Of a stretch of DNA of 31,837 nt, positions 22 to 25,486 are shown piece after piece. This DNA is from a virus. The stretch spans positions 1 to 31,837 of the IMG/VR virus record IMGVR_UViG_3300046804_003924; one strand, written 5' to 3'. The first letter of the stretch is position 1; each line of letters opens with the position of its first letter. The notes beneath the pieces were generated by a model, which searched no databases, had not been told where the DNA came from, and worked only from the letters and a program-made list of their open reading frames with translations. The translations under genes were made by a program, and so were the position numbers.

Positions 22-45
22 GGAAGCGTGGCAGAGTGGTTTATT
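22..45 (+). pseudogene. Possible 5' fragment of a tRNA-Ser gene
   Basis: The bases from GGAAGCG at 22-28 through GCAGAGTGGTTTATT read like the acceptor strand and D-arm of a phage class II tRNA-Ser. No matching anticodon arm follows. The complement of the acceptor strand, CGCTTCT, occurs at 607-613, directly after the complete tRNA-Ser. I read these as the two ends of an older tRNA whose middle was replaced by the HNH plus tRNA cassette, but a chance match is possible. Confidence 0.35.
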
Positions 46-85
46 CTTATAAATATTTCATAAGATATCAATAAACCACCGTGCC
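30..85 (+). promoter_or_regulatory. Hairpin over an HNH start codon, with a late promoter in its loop
   Basis: Bases 30-45 and 70-85 are inverted repeats: GGCA pairs with TGCC and GTGGTTTATT pairs with AATAAACCAC, separated by a 2-nt internal mismatch, 14 bp in all. The 3' arm contains the GTG start (81-83) of the HNH gene. The 24-nt loop contains a perfect T4-type late promoter TATAAATA at 48-55. Inference: read-through transcripts would fold and hide the start codon, while late transcripts starting in the loop lack the 5' arm and can be translated. Confidence 0.65.
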
Positions 86-4880: not shown

Positions 4881-5044
4881 AATCAAGTGGTGGAGTCAAT
4901 CTGACCTCTTTTGGTTTCTTGCTTTCCCATAAAAAAGCAAGTGGTGCGGATGGGGTAACCCCGCCTGGTTTCCAATTTCCAGTAAAAGAATTGGTGGCGT
5001 GCATGAAAGACCTAACGGGAGAGTTGCATAAACTCTCCTTTTTT
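4881..5044 (+). ncRNA. Structured intergenic stretch, candidate small RNA
   Basis: I see no convincing gene in 4881-5076. The stretch holds consecutive hairpins: CTTGCTTT/AAAGCAAG (4918-4941), GGGG-TAA-CCCC (4952-4962), CCAATT/AATTGG (4972-4994) and the terminator at 5018-5044. Such a series ending in an intrinsic terminator is what a small RNA or a structured 3' UTR of the preceding gene would look like. I do not match it to a known RNA family and no clear own promoter is visible. Confidence 0.35.
5018..5044 (+). terminator. Intrinsic terminator
   Basis: GGAGAGTT (5018-5025), loop GCATA, AACTCTCC (5031-5038), then six T. The loop region overlaps the -35 box of the glycan operon promoter. 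Confidence 0.88.
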
Positions 5045-5052
5045 AGTATAAT
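5024..5052 (+). promoter_or_regulatory. Sigma70-type promoter of the glycan operon, -35 in a terminator loop
   Basis: TTGCAT (5024-5029) and TATAAT (5047-5052) are 17 nt apart. The -35 box straddles the 5' stem and loop of the terminator. This is the only good promoter before the 17-gene run starting at 5077. Confidence 0.65.
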
Positions 5053-5076
5053 ACATAGTATAGAGTTTATGATTTT

Positions 5077-20575: not shown

Positions 20576-20595
20576 AATAATATGATATAAACTAA

Positions 20596-20627
20596 AACTC
20601 TGCTCTAAATACTGGGCAGAGTTTTTT
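20596..20627 (+). terminator. Intrinsic terminator, late-promoter-like octamer in loop
   Basis: AACTCTGC (20596-20603), 12-nt loop TCTAAATACTGG, GCAGAGTT (20616-20623) and T-run. The loop carries TCTAAATA, one base off NATAAATA. The next start codon is at 20633. Confidence 0.82.
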
Positions 20628-20632
20628 AGTAT

Positions 20633-20797
20633 ATGCCCAGAGGATACCTGACTAAAGATATTATTAAATGTGAAGTTCTTAAGTTAAAAGCAGACTTGGA
20701 TAAAGAGTGGATGAATAAATCTGGATATGATCCAAAGTGGTTGGCGCATCAATATCTTAATAAGGTTCTAGACAAAATAGAAGAATATAGAGTATAA
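20633..20797 (+). CDS. Small conserved-looking hypothetical protein
   Basis: 54 aa: MPRGYLTKDIIKCEVLKLKA, a helical charged middle with KADLDKEWMNKSGYDPKWL, and LNKVLDKIEEYRV at the end. It follows a terminator with a late-promoter-like loop. Looks like a compact two-helix soluble protein. Family unknown. Confidence 0.6.
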   Translation: MPRGYLTKDIIKCEVLKLKADLDKEWMNKSGYDPKWLAHQYLNKVLDKIEEYRV

Positions 20798-21089: not shown

Positions 21090-21131
21090 AACTCCAAACC
21101 TACCTAAATAATAGTAGGTTTGGAGTTTTTT
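21090..21131 (+). terminator. Terminator hairpin that also covers the RBS of the next HNH gene
   Basis: AACTCCAAACCTAC (21090-21103) pairs perfectly with GTAGGTTTGGAGTT (21114-21127), a 14-bp stem with loop CTAAATAATA, followed by a T-run. It looks like an intrinsic terminator. The 3' arm carries the GGAG Shine-Dalgarno (21122-21125) of the HNH gene at 21132. The loop side contains CCTAAATA (21103-21110), near the late-promoter octamer. Confidence 0.8.
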
Positions 21132-21617
21132 ATGTGCTCTGCTATTGTCCTCTCTACTGATAAGTATAACTATCGTAAGGTTGCCCAAGAACACTATGGA
21201 CTTACTGACGAGCAGATGAAGGATATTGATATTCATCACAACCCACCAAGATGTGAAGGTGGTAGAAATATTCCAGAGCATCTTTATGTTTATCATCCAG
21301 CAACTCATAAACTTATTCACGATAAGCAAGCAATCAACTGGGCAAAGAAGAGTAAAGGAAACTCAACTGAAAAAAGAGGAAAACCACCAAAGAAAACTGA
21401 ACCAACACAGCAAGAACTATCAATATTAAAATATCGTCAATCTGGATTATCAAGAAAAGAAGTTGCTGATTTACTTGGACTAAAAGAACACCAAGTCAAA
21501 AGGGCTATTCGTGAGTGCTCAAAGTTTGGATATGAACTTCACATCAAACCTGGACCTAAAAAGGGATGTGAGCAAAGGGGTGGAAACATAATGGGAGTTA
21601 ATCAATATACCTCTTGA
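21132..21617 (+). CDS. HNH endonuclease-like protein with C-terminal helix-turn-helix
   Basis: 161 aa from ATG 21132. MKDIDIHHNPPRCEGGRNIP contains the catalytic-type His pair and the GGR-N segment, followed by HLYVYHPATHKLIHDKQA (Asn/His-containing part of the HNH fold). The C-terminal half has a helix-turn-helix DNA-binding segment: SGLSRKEVADLLGLKEHQVK, as in many homing nucleases. It sits right before the psbA promoter, in the same position relative to photosynthesis genes as nuclease genes in other cyanophages. Start: an upstream TTG at 21120 is in frame, but only ATG 21132 has the GGAG at proper spacing. Confidence 0.75.
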   Translation: MCSAIVLSTDKYNYRKVAQEHYGLTDEQMKDIDIHHNPPRCEGGRNIPEHLYVYHPATHKLIHDKQAINWAKKSKGNSTEKRGKPPKKTEPTQQELSILKYRQSGLSRKEVADLLGLKEHQVKRAIRECSKFGYELHIKPGPKKGCEQRGGNIMGVNQYTS

Positions 21618-21647
21618 CTTCCCCAGAGGATGGTGTTATGATAAATA
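21614..21647 (+). promoter_or_regulatory. psbA promoter: sigma70 and late motif superimposed
   Basis: TTGACT (21614-21619), 17 nt, TATGAT (21637-21642). The late-type octamer GATAAATA (21640-21647) overlaps the -10 box, so host polymerase and the phage late sigma could use the same place. The -35 lies in the last codons of the HNH gene. Confidence 0.75.
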
Positions 21648-21654
21648 CAACAAC

Positions 21655-21826
21655 GAGTTAAGAAATGTAACAGGTTCTTAACACAAGTTCTTGCCGAAAA
21701 GGGACGAAACTCCTCACCGAGACTAGGCAAGTAAAAGATGTCTCTCATATCCACAGTGGAGGGTGCTGTGGAGTATAATCGTAACGGTTCGTCCCCCCGA
21801 ACTTTTATCTAACTCTCTTAAAAAAA
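21655..21826 (+). promoter_or_regulatory. Structured 5' leader of psbA (possible PhotoRC-type RNA)
   Basis: About 170 nt between the promoter and psbA, with no gene. Hairpins: GTTAAGAA/TTCTTAAC (21657-21682), CTTGCC/GGCAAG (21690-21731), TCCACAG/CTGTGGA (21750-21772) and GTTCG/CGAAC (21787-21802) followed by TTTT. No Shine-Dalgarno is seen before the ATG. Conserved PhotoRC RNA motifs are known upstream of psbA in marine cyanobacteria and cyanophages, so I suspect that class, but I have not matched the consensus. Confidence 0.45.
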
Positions 21827-23112
21827 ATGACTGCTACAATTTCACAACAACGACAATCAAATACTTGGGAACAGTTTTGTAACTGGATTACTAGCACAGA
21901 CAACCGCATCTATGTGGGGTGGTTTGGTGTATTGATGGTGCCTTGCCTGCTTGCTGCTACCATTTGCTTCATCGTTGCCTTTATCGCTGCTCCTCCTGTG
22001 GACATCGACGGCATCCGTGAACCCGTTGCTGGTTCACTCCTCTACGGAAACAACATCATCTCTGGTGCTGTGATTCCGTCGTCCAATGCTATTGGACTTC
22101 ACTTTTACCCCATCTGGGAAGCTGCTTCCCTAGATGAGTGGCTCTACAACGGTGGACCTTTCCAACTGGTAGTGTTCCACTTCCTCATCGGCATCTATGC
22201 TTACATGGGTCGTGAGTGGGAACTTTCCTACCGTCTGGGTATGCGTCCTTGGATCTGTGTTGCCTATTCCGCACCTGTTGCTGCTGCGAGCGCAGTGTTC
22301 CTGGTGTATCCTTTTGGTCAAGGTTCTTTCTCTGACGCAATGCCTCTTGGCATTTCTGGTACTTTTAACTACATGCTTGTGTTCCAGGCAGAGCACAACA
22401 TCCTGATGCACCCCTTCCACATGCTTGGAGTTGCTGGTGTGTTCGGTGGTTCTCTGTTCAGTGCCATGCGCAGAACTATGGTTACAAGTTCGGTCAAGAA
22501 GAAGAGACCTATAACATCGTTGCTGCTCACGGTTATTTCGGACGCCTTATTTTCCAATATGCTTCCTTTAATAACTCCCGTTCGCTGCACTTCTTCCTTG
22601 CTGCCTGGCCTGTTGTAGGTATCTGGTTCACTGCTCTGGGTGTTTCCACGATGGCATTCAACCTGAACGGTTTCAACTTCAATCAGTCTATCGTTGATAG
22701 TCAGGGCAAGGTAATCAATACCTGGGCTGACGTTCTCAACCGTGCTGGACTGGGCATGGAGGTAATGCACGAACGCAACGCTAGAATTGTTGGTGTTGTT
22801 GCCTAGTAATAGGCATTAGAAAAATCGGGTTAAACGGGGAAACTCTCTATGAGACAATCCCGTACCAAGTCAGAAAGGGTTTAAGTTTTCTGAAAGGTCT
22901 AACGACTAGGTAGTGAGTCCCAACAATAATCTACCCACGAATGCCCGACTCCTTAATAACCATAAGGATGAAGAGATAGTCTGAACTTACTGGCGACAGT
23001 AAGAAGTAAAGAATAAAGAGTCTTTACGATAACAAAATTGCATAATTTCCCTCTTGACCTTGCAGCAGCAGAAGCAACCCCAGTTGCTCTTACTGCTCCC
23101 GCAATCGGTTAA
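21827..23112 (+). pseudogene. psbA: psbA, photosystem II D1, interrupted by intron and broken by a 52-nt deletion
   Basis: D1 core protein of photosystem II. Exon 1 (21827-22782) and exon 2 (23041-23112) flank a group I intron; joining gives ERNA-HNFPLDL across the junction and a normal end ALTAPAIG. The first 214 residues are normal through FGGSLFSAM. After Met214 (22466-22468) the next family residues are QNYGYKF, in another frame starting at 22471: codons for His215 to about Ser232 are missing. Exons total 1028 nt; plus 52 gives 360 codons, the family length. The frame therefore ends early at 22618 (263 aa). His215, ligand of the non-haem iron, is lost. Either a true mutation or a sequencing/assembly fault. 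Confidence 0.88.
22783..23040 (+). other. Group I intron in psbA (258 nt)
   Basis: The boundaries are fixed by D1 homology: exon 1 ends in ..AACGCT (U at the 5' site) and the intron ends in ..AAAATTG (terminal G), as for group I introns. Inside are GAAGAGATAGTCTGAAC (about 22970-22986), resembling the conserved P7 region, and typical core elements such as CCCGTACCAAGTC upstream. No ORF is inside. A psbA group I intron at this point near the 3' end is known from cyanophage S-PM2. Short enough to need a nuclease in trans for mobility. Confidence 0.85.
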
Positions 23113-23119
23113 TAAAATT

Positions 23120-23146
23120 AGAGACCCTTTACGGGTCTCTTTTTTT
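23120..23146 (+). terminator. psbA terminator
   Basis: AGAGACCC (23120-23127), loop TTTAC, GGGTCTCT (23133-23140), then T6. The loop overlaps a weak -35 (TTTACG, 23128-23133). Confidence 0.9.
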
Positions 23147-23165
23147 ATGGTATACTATATAAATA
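23128..23165 (+). promoter_or_regulatory. Promoter region of the GIY-YIG gene
   Basis: A perfect late promoter TATAAATA at 23158-23165, 27 nt before the ATG. Also TTTACG (23128-23133) and TATACT (23151-23156) at 17 nt, a weak sigma70 pair starting in the terminator loop. Confidence 0.65.
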
Positions 23166-23191: not shown

Positions 23192-23785
23192 ATGGATTTG
23201 CACCAACTAGTAATATCTGAATGTGATAGAAGAGGATTGGAACTAATCCATCTTCCTGAAAAACTTGTTCGTCGTTCTACTGATGTGATTGTAAGCTGCC
23301 CTTGTACGGGTCAACGAAATATGAGTATAAGAAACTTTATTGTGACTTATGAGAAAGGTGGAGAGGCATTCTGCTGTAAGAGAAAATCAAAAGTTGGAAA
23401 AAATAATCCTGCATTTGGAAAACCAACTTGGAATGCTGGAACTGTTGGTGTATCAAAGAGTTATGGATTTTTTGGTTTTAAAGAAGAGTGGTCTGATAGA
23501 GAGGACTACTTATATTTTATTGAAACCATATATGGAACCTATAAAATTGGTAGGTCTTTTCATGGCATAAAATATCGTTTTACTGAAACTATAAATGAAC
23601 TTGGTGAGTGGAAAGCATCTCATAAAGAGGTGTTTGATTGTGAGAGGTATATTTTAGAAAATTATAAGCAATATCAAAAAAAGATAGATGGTATAATTGG
23701 TGGGTCGGAACACTTTACCAAAGAATTACCCATTCAAGAAATTATGGAATATGCAGATCAAAAATTGAGCACTAATACTCATTGA
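23192..23785 (+). CDS. GIY-YIG-type homing endonuclease between psbA and psbD
   Basis: 197 aa. N-terminal zinc-like pairs (CPC and FCCKRKSK), then KVGKNNPAFGKPTWNAG, a NUMOD3-like DNA-binding motif, then a GIY-YIG-like core: YLYFIETIYGTYKIGRSFHG (Tyr, Gly and the catalytic-type Arg), KYRF and the Glu-containing FDCERYILENYKQY, ending GGSEHFTKE. In S-PM2 the free-standing nuclease F-CphI occupies this place and targets the intron insertion site of intronless psbA. I expect the same role here but have not compared sequences. Start ATG 23192; weak ribosome binding site. Confidence 0.75.
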   Translation: MDLHQLVISECDRRGLELIHLPEKLVRRSTDVIVSCPCTGQRNMSIRNFIVTYEKGGEAFCCKRKSKVGKNNPAFGKPTWNAGTVGVSKSYGFFGFKEEWSDREDYLYFIETIYGTYKIGRSFHGIKYRFTETINELGEWKASHKEVFDCERYILENYKQYQKKIDGIIGGSEHFTKELPIQEIMEYADQKLSTNTH

Positions 23786-23815
23786 CCTTTTTATTACGAT
23801 ATGTTAAGATAAATA
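23782..23815 (+). promoter_or_regulatory. psbD promoter: sigma70 and late motif superimposed
   Basis: TTGACC (23782-23787), 17 nt, TAAGAT (23805-23810), with GATAAATA (23808-23815) overlapping the -10. Same layout as at psbA. The gene follows after a strong Shine-Dalgarno AAGGAGG. Confidence 0.75.
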
Positions 23816-23836: not shown

Positions 23837-24898
23837 ATGACTTCTTCTACTCTTTCACAACCAATTTCACAGAGAGGATGGTTCGATGTTCTCGATGACT
23901 GGCTTAAGCGTGATAGGTTTGTTTTTGTCGGTTGGTCTGGTTTACTTCTATTCCCGACTGCTTATCTCGCTCTTGGCGGGTGGCTTACAGGAACCACCTT
24001 TGCTACCAGTTGGTACACCCACGGCATTGCGAGTTCATATCTTGAGGGGTGTAACTTTCTTACTGCTGCTGTATCTACTCCTGCTGACGCTCTCGGACAT
24101 TCTCTTCTACTCCTATGGGGTCCTGAAGCTCAGGGAGATTTCGTCCGCTGGGTCCAACTTGGGGGACTCTGGCCTTTTGTGGCGCTCCACGGAGCTTTCA
24201 GCCTAATCGGATTCATGCTGCGTCAGTTTGAGATTGCCCGTCTTGTAGGCATCAGACCTTACAACGCAATCGCATTCTCTGGTCCTATCGCAGTATTTGT
24301 TTCTGTGTTCCTGATGTACCCACTGGGACAATCCAGTTGGTTCTTTGCACCTTCCTTTGGTGTTGCTGCTATCTTCAGGTTCCTTCTGTTCCTTCAGGGT
24401 TTCCACAACTGGACTCTCAACCCCTTCCATATGATGGGTGTGGCAGGTATTCTTGGTGGTGCTCTGCTCTGTGCTATTCACGGAGCAACTGTAGAAAACA
24501 CTCTATTTGAAGACAGTGACCAAGCGAACACTTTCAAAGCATTTGAACCGACTCAAGAGGAAGAGACCTATTCGATGGTTACTGCGAACCGTTTTTGGTC
24601 GCAGATATTCGGGATTGCTTTTAGTAACAAGCGTTGGCTTCATTTCTTTATGCTCTTTGTGCCTGTTATGGGTCTTTGGACTTCTTCCATTGGCATTATT
24701 GGTCTTGCCCTTAATCTTCGTGCTTACGACTTTGTGAGTCAGGAGATTAGAGCAGCAGAAGACCCGGAATGGGAAACTTTTTACACGAAGAACATATTGT
24801 TAAACGAAGGCTTACGTGCCTGGATGGCTCCTGTGGATCAACCCCACGAACGATTCGTTTTTCCAGAGGAGGTTCTTCCCAGAGGAAACGCTCTTTAA
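23837..24898 (+). CDS. psbD: Photosystem II D2 protein
   Basis: 353 aa, full length and apparently intact. Family regions are all present: [18 protein letters not shown] in the first helix, [35 protein letters not shown] with the P680-side and iron-binding His, [16 protein letters not shown] and the C-terminal [10 protein letters not shown]. It pairs with D1 in the reaction centre. ATG 23837 is preceded by AAGGAGG. The intact copy beside a broken psbA argues that the psbA defect is recent or an artefact. Terminator follows at 24904. Confidence 0.95.
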
Positions 24899-24903
24899 TA
24901 TCC

Positions 24904-24925
24904 AAGACCCGCAAGGGTCTTTTTT
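24904..24925 (+). terminator. psbD terminator
   Basis: AAGACCC (24904-24910), loop GCAA, GGGTCTT (24915-24921) and T-run. Confidence 0.88.
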
Positions 24926-24926
24926 A

Positions 24927-24960
24927 TTGACTTATTTTCCAAACTATGATATTATAAATA
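24927..24960 (+). promoter_or_regulatory. Superimposed sigma70 and late promoter before the nuclease-like gene
   Basis: TTGACT (24927-24932), 17 nt, TATTAT (24950-24955) overlapping a perfect TATAAATA (24953-24960). Follows directly on the psbD terminator. Third example of this layout. Confidence 0.75.
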
Positions 24961-24985
24961 ATATAAGTTATTCATAGTTTGGAAA
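24936..24985 (+). promoter_or_regulatory. 14-bp hairpin covering the RBS of the nuclease-like gene, late promoter in its loop
   Basis: TTTCCAAACTATGA (24936-24949) pairs perfectly with TCATAGTTTGGAAA (24972-24985). The 3' arm carries the ribosome binding site GGA (24981-24983), and the ATG is at 24989. The loop contains TATAAATA. Read-through RNA from psbD would hide the site; late RNA starting in the loop lacks the 5' arm. Confidence 0.75.
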
Positions 24986-24988
24986 GTT

Positions 24989-25486
24989 ATGTTGTGTATT
25001 TTAGATATAAAGTCCGCACCAAAAGGTAGAATAGCAAAGTGTCTTTGTGAATGTGGAGTAGAGAAAAATATATTTTTATACTCTATAAAACCTGGTGGTA
25101 AAGTTAGGAGTTGTGGGTGTTATAGGAAGAAAGAGCGAGCAAGAAGAAATATGATAGAAAAACCTGTAGAGGAAAGGAAGTGTGATGATAGAAGATATAA
25201 GATGTTTCATAACGCTCAACACAGAGCAAAAATAAAAGGTATTCCTTTTAGTATAACTATAGATGATATTATTATTCCAGAAACTTGTCCTTTACTTGGA
25301 ATACCTTTGGTTTCTACTAATAATAAGAGAGACCCAAGAAACCCCAGTTTAGATCAAAAAGTTCCTGGTAAAGGATATACCCTAGATAATATTTGGGTTA
25401 TATCTTCAAGAGCTAACTGGATAAAATGTGACGCATCCCTACAAGAACTTGAACTCCTGGTAGAAAACCTCAAAGCACTTAAATGA
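24989..25486 (+). CDS. HNH-like endonuclease family protein
   Basis: 165 aa. The N-terminal part has CLCECGVEKNIFLYSIKPGG followed by SCGC, the Cys-rich DNA-binding segment found ahead of many phage nuclease domains. The C-terminal part FSITIDDIIIPETCPLLGIP, PSLDQKVPGKGYTLDNIWVI and SSRANWIKCDAS resembles the phage HNH-like group with D-N-V/I-ISxRAN. It is coupled to the next gene by a 4-nt overlap (ATGA). No clear classical HNH triple is visible; assignment by likeness to that group. Confidence 0.65.
   Translation: MLCILDIKSAPKGRIAKCLCECGVEKNIFLYSIKPGGKVRSCGCYRKKERARRNMIEKPVEERKCDDRRYKMFHNAQHRAKIKGIPFSITIDDIIIPETCPLLGIPLVSTNNKRDPRNPSLDQKVPGKGYTLDNIWVISSRANWIKCDASLQELELLVENLKALK

Follow-up and report, generated by a model that had tools for sequence, protein, structure and literature searches.

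An inverted repeat over the start of a gene next to psbD

The window analysed here (W in comparisons) is a whole virus record of 31.8 kb, and its source is a cyanobacterial virus of the T4-like cyanophage type. The genes of interest are arranged in the order psbA, ORF 23192, psbD (23837-24898) and a nuclease-like gene, the start of which lies in an RNA hairpin hereafter referred to as a cage. A group I intron (22773-23003) splits psbA, the leader of which carries the PhotoRC-II RNA of Rfam (21679-21786). Another Rfam element, wcaG RNA (4910-5008), is located 5' of an epimerase-like gene; the inverted repeat at 5027-5071, considered as a possible cage, was rejected and looks like a terminator 3' of the wcaG RNA.

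psbD ends 90 nt 5' of the nuclease-like gene on the same strand, with an intrinsic terminator in between (Table 1), and in all loci examined, including isolate S-SKS1, the gene is located directly 3' of psbD in this orientation. The ORF product matched phrog_3322 (endonuclease, 1.3e-30) and phrog_1035 (endonuclease VII, 1.5e-18) of PHROG and no model of Pfam, and the PHROG matches bear out the label "nuclease-like" used in an earlier note on this DNA. The site is empty in L070, L074, L076, L086 and L087, in which psbD is followed directly by the next gene, as expected for a mobile gene. The PHROG signature and the empty sites together suggest a free-standing mobile nuclease gene, possibly that of a homing endonuclease. 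About 20 N-terminal residues of other branches are missing from the group A proteins, so that their nuclease activity is uncertain; for the product of ORF 24989-25486 it is presumed from the protein sequence.

Among named phages, DNA matches to this exact region were limited to the psbD end, and relatives were therefore taken from IMG/VR (labelled L plus a number). Group A was aligned together with L030, giving a total of five sequences (the window, L001, L004, L005 and L030); group B consists of L007, L010, L025, L029, L034 and S-SKS1; and group C has nine members, among them L011, L013, L014, L016 and L017.

The two arms of the hairpin are 14 bp long, 100% complementary and separated by a 22-nt loop. 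The loop contains TATAAATA, a perfect match to the T4 late consensus, and the GGAAA Shine-Dalgarno is located in the 3' arm, just before the ATG; in these three respects the earlier description of the hairpin was correct. The fold of RNA 24920-25010 was calculated at -21.7 kcal/mol (z = -4.6), and none of 200 shuffles was as stable. The window has two perfect inverted repeats with arms of 14 bp or longer and a loop of at most 60 nt, against 0.03 expected from 60 dinucleotide shuffles of its full sequence; each of the two surrounds a box resembling a late promoter and is followed 3' by a nuclease-like ORF.

Table 1. Positions of the hairpin, promoter-like and coding features in the window
Feature	Position	Strand	Remarks
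Cage of HNH ORF 81-533, 10 bp	36-79	+	around TATAAATA (48-55); beside tRNA-Ser; tRNA-like D-arm as 5' arm
Second 14-bp perfect hairpin	21090-21127	+	before ORF 21132-21617; loop CTAAATAATA; GGAG in 3' arm; TTTTTT after
Composite promoter	21614-21647		before psbA
Composite promoter	23128-23165		before ORF 23192
Composite promoter	23782-23815		before psbD
Composite promoter	24927-24960		before nuclease gene
psbD intrinsic terminator	24904-24921	+	7-pair stem, then T-rich tail
-35-like hexamer TTGACT, sigma-70-type	24927-24932	+	invariant in W, L001, L004, L005, L030
Hairpin 5' arm TTTCCAAACTATGA	24936-24949	+	perfect complement of 3' arm; covariation
Extended -10 TGA-TATTAT, sigma-70-type	24947-24955	+	17-nt spacer; TATTAT at 24950-24955
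T4-type late promoter box TATAAATA	24953-24960	+	in loop
Inferred RNA starts	24961-24966	+	sigma-70 ~24961-24963, late ~24966; from T4 and sigma-70 spacing
Hairpin 3' arm TCATAGTTTGGAAA	24972-24985	+	perfect complement of 5' arm; covariation
Weak Shine-Dalgarno GGAAA	24981-24985	+	end of 3' arm
Nuclease-like ORF	24989-25486	+	165 aa; Zn-finger-like CxC..SCGC, HNH/Endo VII-like C-terminal part

Opening of the ribosome site and covariation of the arms

The accessibility of the start was estimated as the opening cost, a calculated and not a measured quantity, defined as the free energy needed to open positions -15 to +3 around the start codon. For the nuclease-like gene it was 17.7 kcal/mol when the RNA reads through from psbD, 2.1 when it begins at the inferred late start and 3-4.7 when it begins at the inferred sigma-70 start; scrambling of the 5' arm gave 5.7 +/- 1.5 kcal/mol. 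By computation, the ribosome site of RNA initiated upstream lies in a stable helix, and the unpaired probability of GGAAA in read-through RNA is about zero. Both inferred starts fall 3' of the 5' arm, and late RNA, the start of which is placed at 24966 by T4 spacing, would be made without this arm. Among the T4 controls, e (15.3 to 1.9-4.7 kcal/mol) and segB (17.3 to 5.7 kcal/mol) showed patterns like that of the window gene, and soc (7.6 vs 6.3 kcal/mol) showed no clear effect. By this measure, the parallels to T4 drawn in the earlier note hold for e, which separates, and not for soc.

In the five-sequence alignment, 96% of cells are paired and four pairs have changed on both sides, a level reached by 2 of 500 shuffles, and the signal is abolished by sliding the partner arms. 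Compensating changes in relatives, proposed beforehand as a check of the hairpin, are therefore present. The same gene in group B carries a cage (ATACCTTC.../...GAAGGTAT) unrelated in sequence to that of the window and 10 bp long in S-SKS1, with opening costs of 8-17 (read-through), 1-4 (late) and 3.6-4.8 kcal/mol (sigma-70); its covariation is weaker (three double-changed pairs, 18 of 500 shuffles as high, S-SKS1 included). The cages of GIY-YIG genes make up a third unrelated family, with 17 aligned pairs and individual phages reaching 23 bp; 98% of cells are paired and three pairs are double-changed, as matched by 37 of 500 shuffles by count and 4 of 500 by covariation score.

Upon addition of group C to the alignment, pairing drops to 82%. 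Little or no cage is found at the same locus in most of this group (L011, L013, L014, L016, L017), and with the nuclease at the same place the cage is absent in L069 and L075 and partial in L090. The observation named in advance as damaging, arms changing without compensation, was thus encountered in part. Since most of group C and L069/L075 do with little or no cage, it is dispensable; judged from these alignments, the cage is under selection in several lineages, yet not obligatory.

Comparison of W with L072, both of which have a cage, gave 100% DNA identity from 25195 to about 25434 and only 40-62% over 24911-25194, a stretch that takes in promoter and cage together with the N-terminal part; for cage and N-terminal part the identity is 40-55%. 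The jump in identity is sharp and falls within the nuclease gene, near 25195. The presence of two unrelated cages on one catalytic part points to exchange of a module made up of regulatory region and N-terminal part, and the comparison of W with L072 suggests that such a module may have been swapped between relatives.

Overlapping promoters and the proposed role of the cage

A consensus match to a sigma-70-type promoter, TTGACT-N17-TATTAT, runs through the 5' arm and overlaps the late box. Its score of 11/13, extended -10 included, was reached in 7 of 3000 shuffled versions of the intergenic region, and the match persists in every group A member and in six of the nine of group C; within group A, TTGACT and TG are invariant and the intervening bases vary. 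The composite layout, an extended -10 sigma-70 match with a 17-nt spacer and an overlapping NATAAATA box, is found four times in the window (Table 1). ORF 23192, one of the genes preceded by it, has no cage (opening cost 5.0 vs 4.2 kcal/mol); tblastn against named phages gave no match to it, and Pfam and PHROG gave no nuclease match. In group B, TATAAT with TG stands at the beginning of the 5' arm; a full -35/-10 match is present in L007, L010 and L025 and in none of L029, L034 and S-SKS1, and RNA from TATAAT would lack most of the 5' arm in L010, L025 and L034. The cages of GIY-YIG genes have no overlapping sigma-70 match. CCAAAC, considered as a general upstream element of late promoters, was dropped: neither the GIY-YIG nor the group B cages contain it, and an extended -10 accounts better for the conserved TATGA.

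For cyanomyoviruses, early promoters that overlap late ones have already been proposed (PMC2984593). The sigma-70-type promoter in the window is probably a source of RNA early in infection. If so, the nuclease gene would be translatable early. The earlier claim that only late transcripts are translated is thus unsupported as written, since RNA from the sigma-70-type start would also be uncaged, and so is the claim that the hairpin limits early nuclease synthesis, given the conserved match overlapping the late box.

Accordingly, the reading that we prefer, with a probability of about three in four, is that the RNA cage ties translation of the nuclease to the gene's own promoter or promoters and silences read-through from psbD. 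RNA that passes the psbD terminator would contain both arms, its ribosome site would be locked in the 14-bp helix, and little nuclease would be made. RNA begun inside the loop would be without the 5' arm and its ribosome site would be open; this would apply to late RNA from the loop box, and the overlapping sigma-70-type promoter would probably yield equally open RNA earlier in infection. With both own-promoter RNAs escaping, only read-through RNA would be caged, and the hairpin most likely insulates the gene from psbD read-through and is not the sole setter of lateness. The observations underneath are the sequence, base-pair covariation, calculated energies, conserved promoter-like motifs, the position after psbD and the empty sites, from which we infer the transcription starts, the promoter activity and the effect on protein level. 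Against this reading stand the relatives with little or no cage, the psbD terminator, which should already restrict read-through, the weak Shine-Dalgarno, the shortened N-terminus of the group A proteins, and the promoter itself (TG and -10), which could account for part of the conservation of the 5' arm. Late timing and read-through insulation, two ideas usually merged, are here separated. From the earlier interpretation as a whole, the hairpin, the loop box, the hidden ribosome site and the covariation stand, and the late-only timing is not supported as written.

Strict gating of the T4 style, with the gene silent early, the sigma-70-like motif inactive and only gp55-type late RNA translated, agrees with the perfect T4 consensus of the loop box, with the GIY-YIG cages that have no overlapping sigma-70 match and with the T4 precedents. 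It leaves unexplained the extended -10 match, with its score and its retention in groups A and C, and the same layout before psbA, psbD and ORF 23192; it is weaker than the insulation reading, and we regard it as rather unlikely. The inverted repeat might instead be a DNA operator at which the nuclease or another dimeric protein represses the promoter. I-TevI, and probably I-TevII and I-TevIII, have operators overlapping their promoters (PMC2988022), and autorepression of this kind would fit both the overlap of the repeat with the promoter and the retention of CCAAAC..TATGA of the 5' arm in group C despite the looser pairing there. A protein site, however, would keep its letters, whereas the two arms vary together from family to family, G-U pairs being tolerated, and the same gene is served by unrelated arm sequences; an operator is improbable. 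A terminator or 3'-end stabiliser of psbD RNA would suit the position 3' of psbD and the terminator-like hairpins with a T run at 21090-21127 and 20594-20625, but the terminator reading was rejected for want of a T run after 24985, a normal terminator being present at 24904-24921 and the start region lying under the stem in every family, and this alternative as a whole is very improbable. A chance palindrome or functionless insertion remnant, as the A/T-rich region and the relatives without a cage might suggest, is hardly credible in view of the excess over the 0.03 expected, the compensatory changes and the enrichment of cages before nuclease genes described below.

Known systems and cages on other genes

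I-TevI, e and mobE are established cases of hairpin gating (PMC2988022, PMC3014915). The hairpin before the nuclease-like gene is real, conserved in its pairing and of the same kind as those of T4 I-TevI, e and segB and Aeh1 mobE. segB of T4 is likewise a free-standing nuclease gene with a caged late box (CATAAATA), a hidden start region and the opening costs given above, but it encodes another family (GIY-YIG) at another locus (the tRNA cluster); in the part of the literature consulted no sigma-70 match is reported for segB. mobE of Aeromonas phage Aeh1, a free-standing HNH gene, has its ribosome-binding site in an RNA hairpin from which late RNA escapes (PMC2988022, PMC3014915); it is embedded in a ribonucleotide reductase gene, and the likeness is one of description. 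I-TevI, I-TevII and I-TevIII share the logic of a promoter within a hairpin but are intron-encoded, and the I-TevI hairpin, unlike that of the window gene, also protects splicing and is accompanied by an operator. T4 e follows the same logic, although neither e nor soc is a nuclease gene. F-CphI of S-PM2 is another cyanophage nuclease that is free-standing and located in the psbA region (PMC6083498), but it adjoins an intron-containing psbA and its described control is by antisense RNA, with no cage (PMC2984593). The literature was searched with incomplete coverage, and within it an earlier report of the device in cyanophages was not found. A classical control device of T4 would be carried over to cyanobacterial phages, at the photosynthesis genes psbA and psbD, and the unrelated cages on one gene form a natural set suited to reporter tests.

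Cages on other genes were looked for in a sample of 82 late genes, the loci of which were gathered by the string TATAAATAATAATAG only, regardless of cages; this string could favour some families. The calculated gain from a start in the loop was at least 5 kcal/mol for 7 of 19 nuclease ORFs versus 3 of 63 others (Fisher p = 0.001), nuclease status being judged by eye from sequence and backed by PHROG matches for a subset. When every NATAAATA/CTAAATA site of the unbiased loci was scanned, the excess was only weak; it emerges upon restriction to TATAAATA sites that are intergenic and lie within the required distance of the start codon. An inverted repeat that hides the start and has a late box within it is a sign, readable from the sequence alone, of mobile nuclease genes.

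Two further nuclease-like genes of the window are caged. The first, ORF 21132-21617, is HNH-like in appearance and has only HTH matches in the libraries; its opening cost is 16.6-19.8 vs 4.2-4.7 kcal/mol. The hairpin before it could be a terminator, a late promoter and a cage of the ribosome-binding site in one. It is kept in most of L049-L066; uncompensated mismatches occur in L057/L058 and L054, in which it is still closed (14 vs 4.7-5.0), and the 3' arm is missing from L061/L062. The second, HNH ORF 81-533 (GTG start; examined together with 22-79), has a tRNA-like 5' fragment on one side and an intact tRNA-Ser (525-609) on the other, a setting parallel to that of T4 segB. Its leader contains AATAAACCAC, complementary to the tRNA-like D-arm that serves as the 5' arm, and its opening cost is 14.5 vs 2.3 kcal/mol; the tRNA-like arms are kept in relatives L301-L306, and another arm is found in L309/L310.

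From these cases it may tentatively be proposed, at somewhat less than an even chance, that RNA cages enclosing a promoter are a regulatory module general to mobile nuclease genes in T4-like cyanophages, that unrelated cages, one with a tRNA D-arm as its 5' arm, repeatedly arise or are swapped, and that at psbD a composite early/late promoter is caged, the device being an insulator and not a timer.

GIY-YIG/NUMOD3 genes in L217-L235 and on the minus strands of L059 and L008 have 16-23 bp cages around TATAAATA with clean compensatory changes and, in these genes, no obvious Shine-Dalgarno. Genes of the endonuclease VII type, each with a late box whose cage is short or imperfect, were found in L017 (2026-2385), just 3' of psbA, where the calculated effect is nil (5.1 vs 5.2), and in L175 (1892-2413), where it is large (12.1 vs 0.7). 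In the window, a 10-bp terminator-like hairpin with CTAAATA in its loop (20594-20625), also present in L016, L013 and L056, precedes ORF 20633-20797 (54 aa), which has no Pfam match. A large gain of openness (16.5 vs 2.6 kcal/mol) was calculated for L185 407-949, a non-nuclease ORF, and caging is therefore not confined to nucleases.
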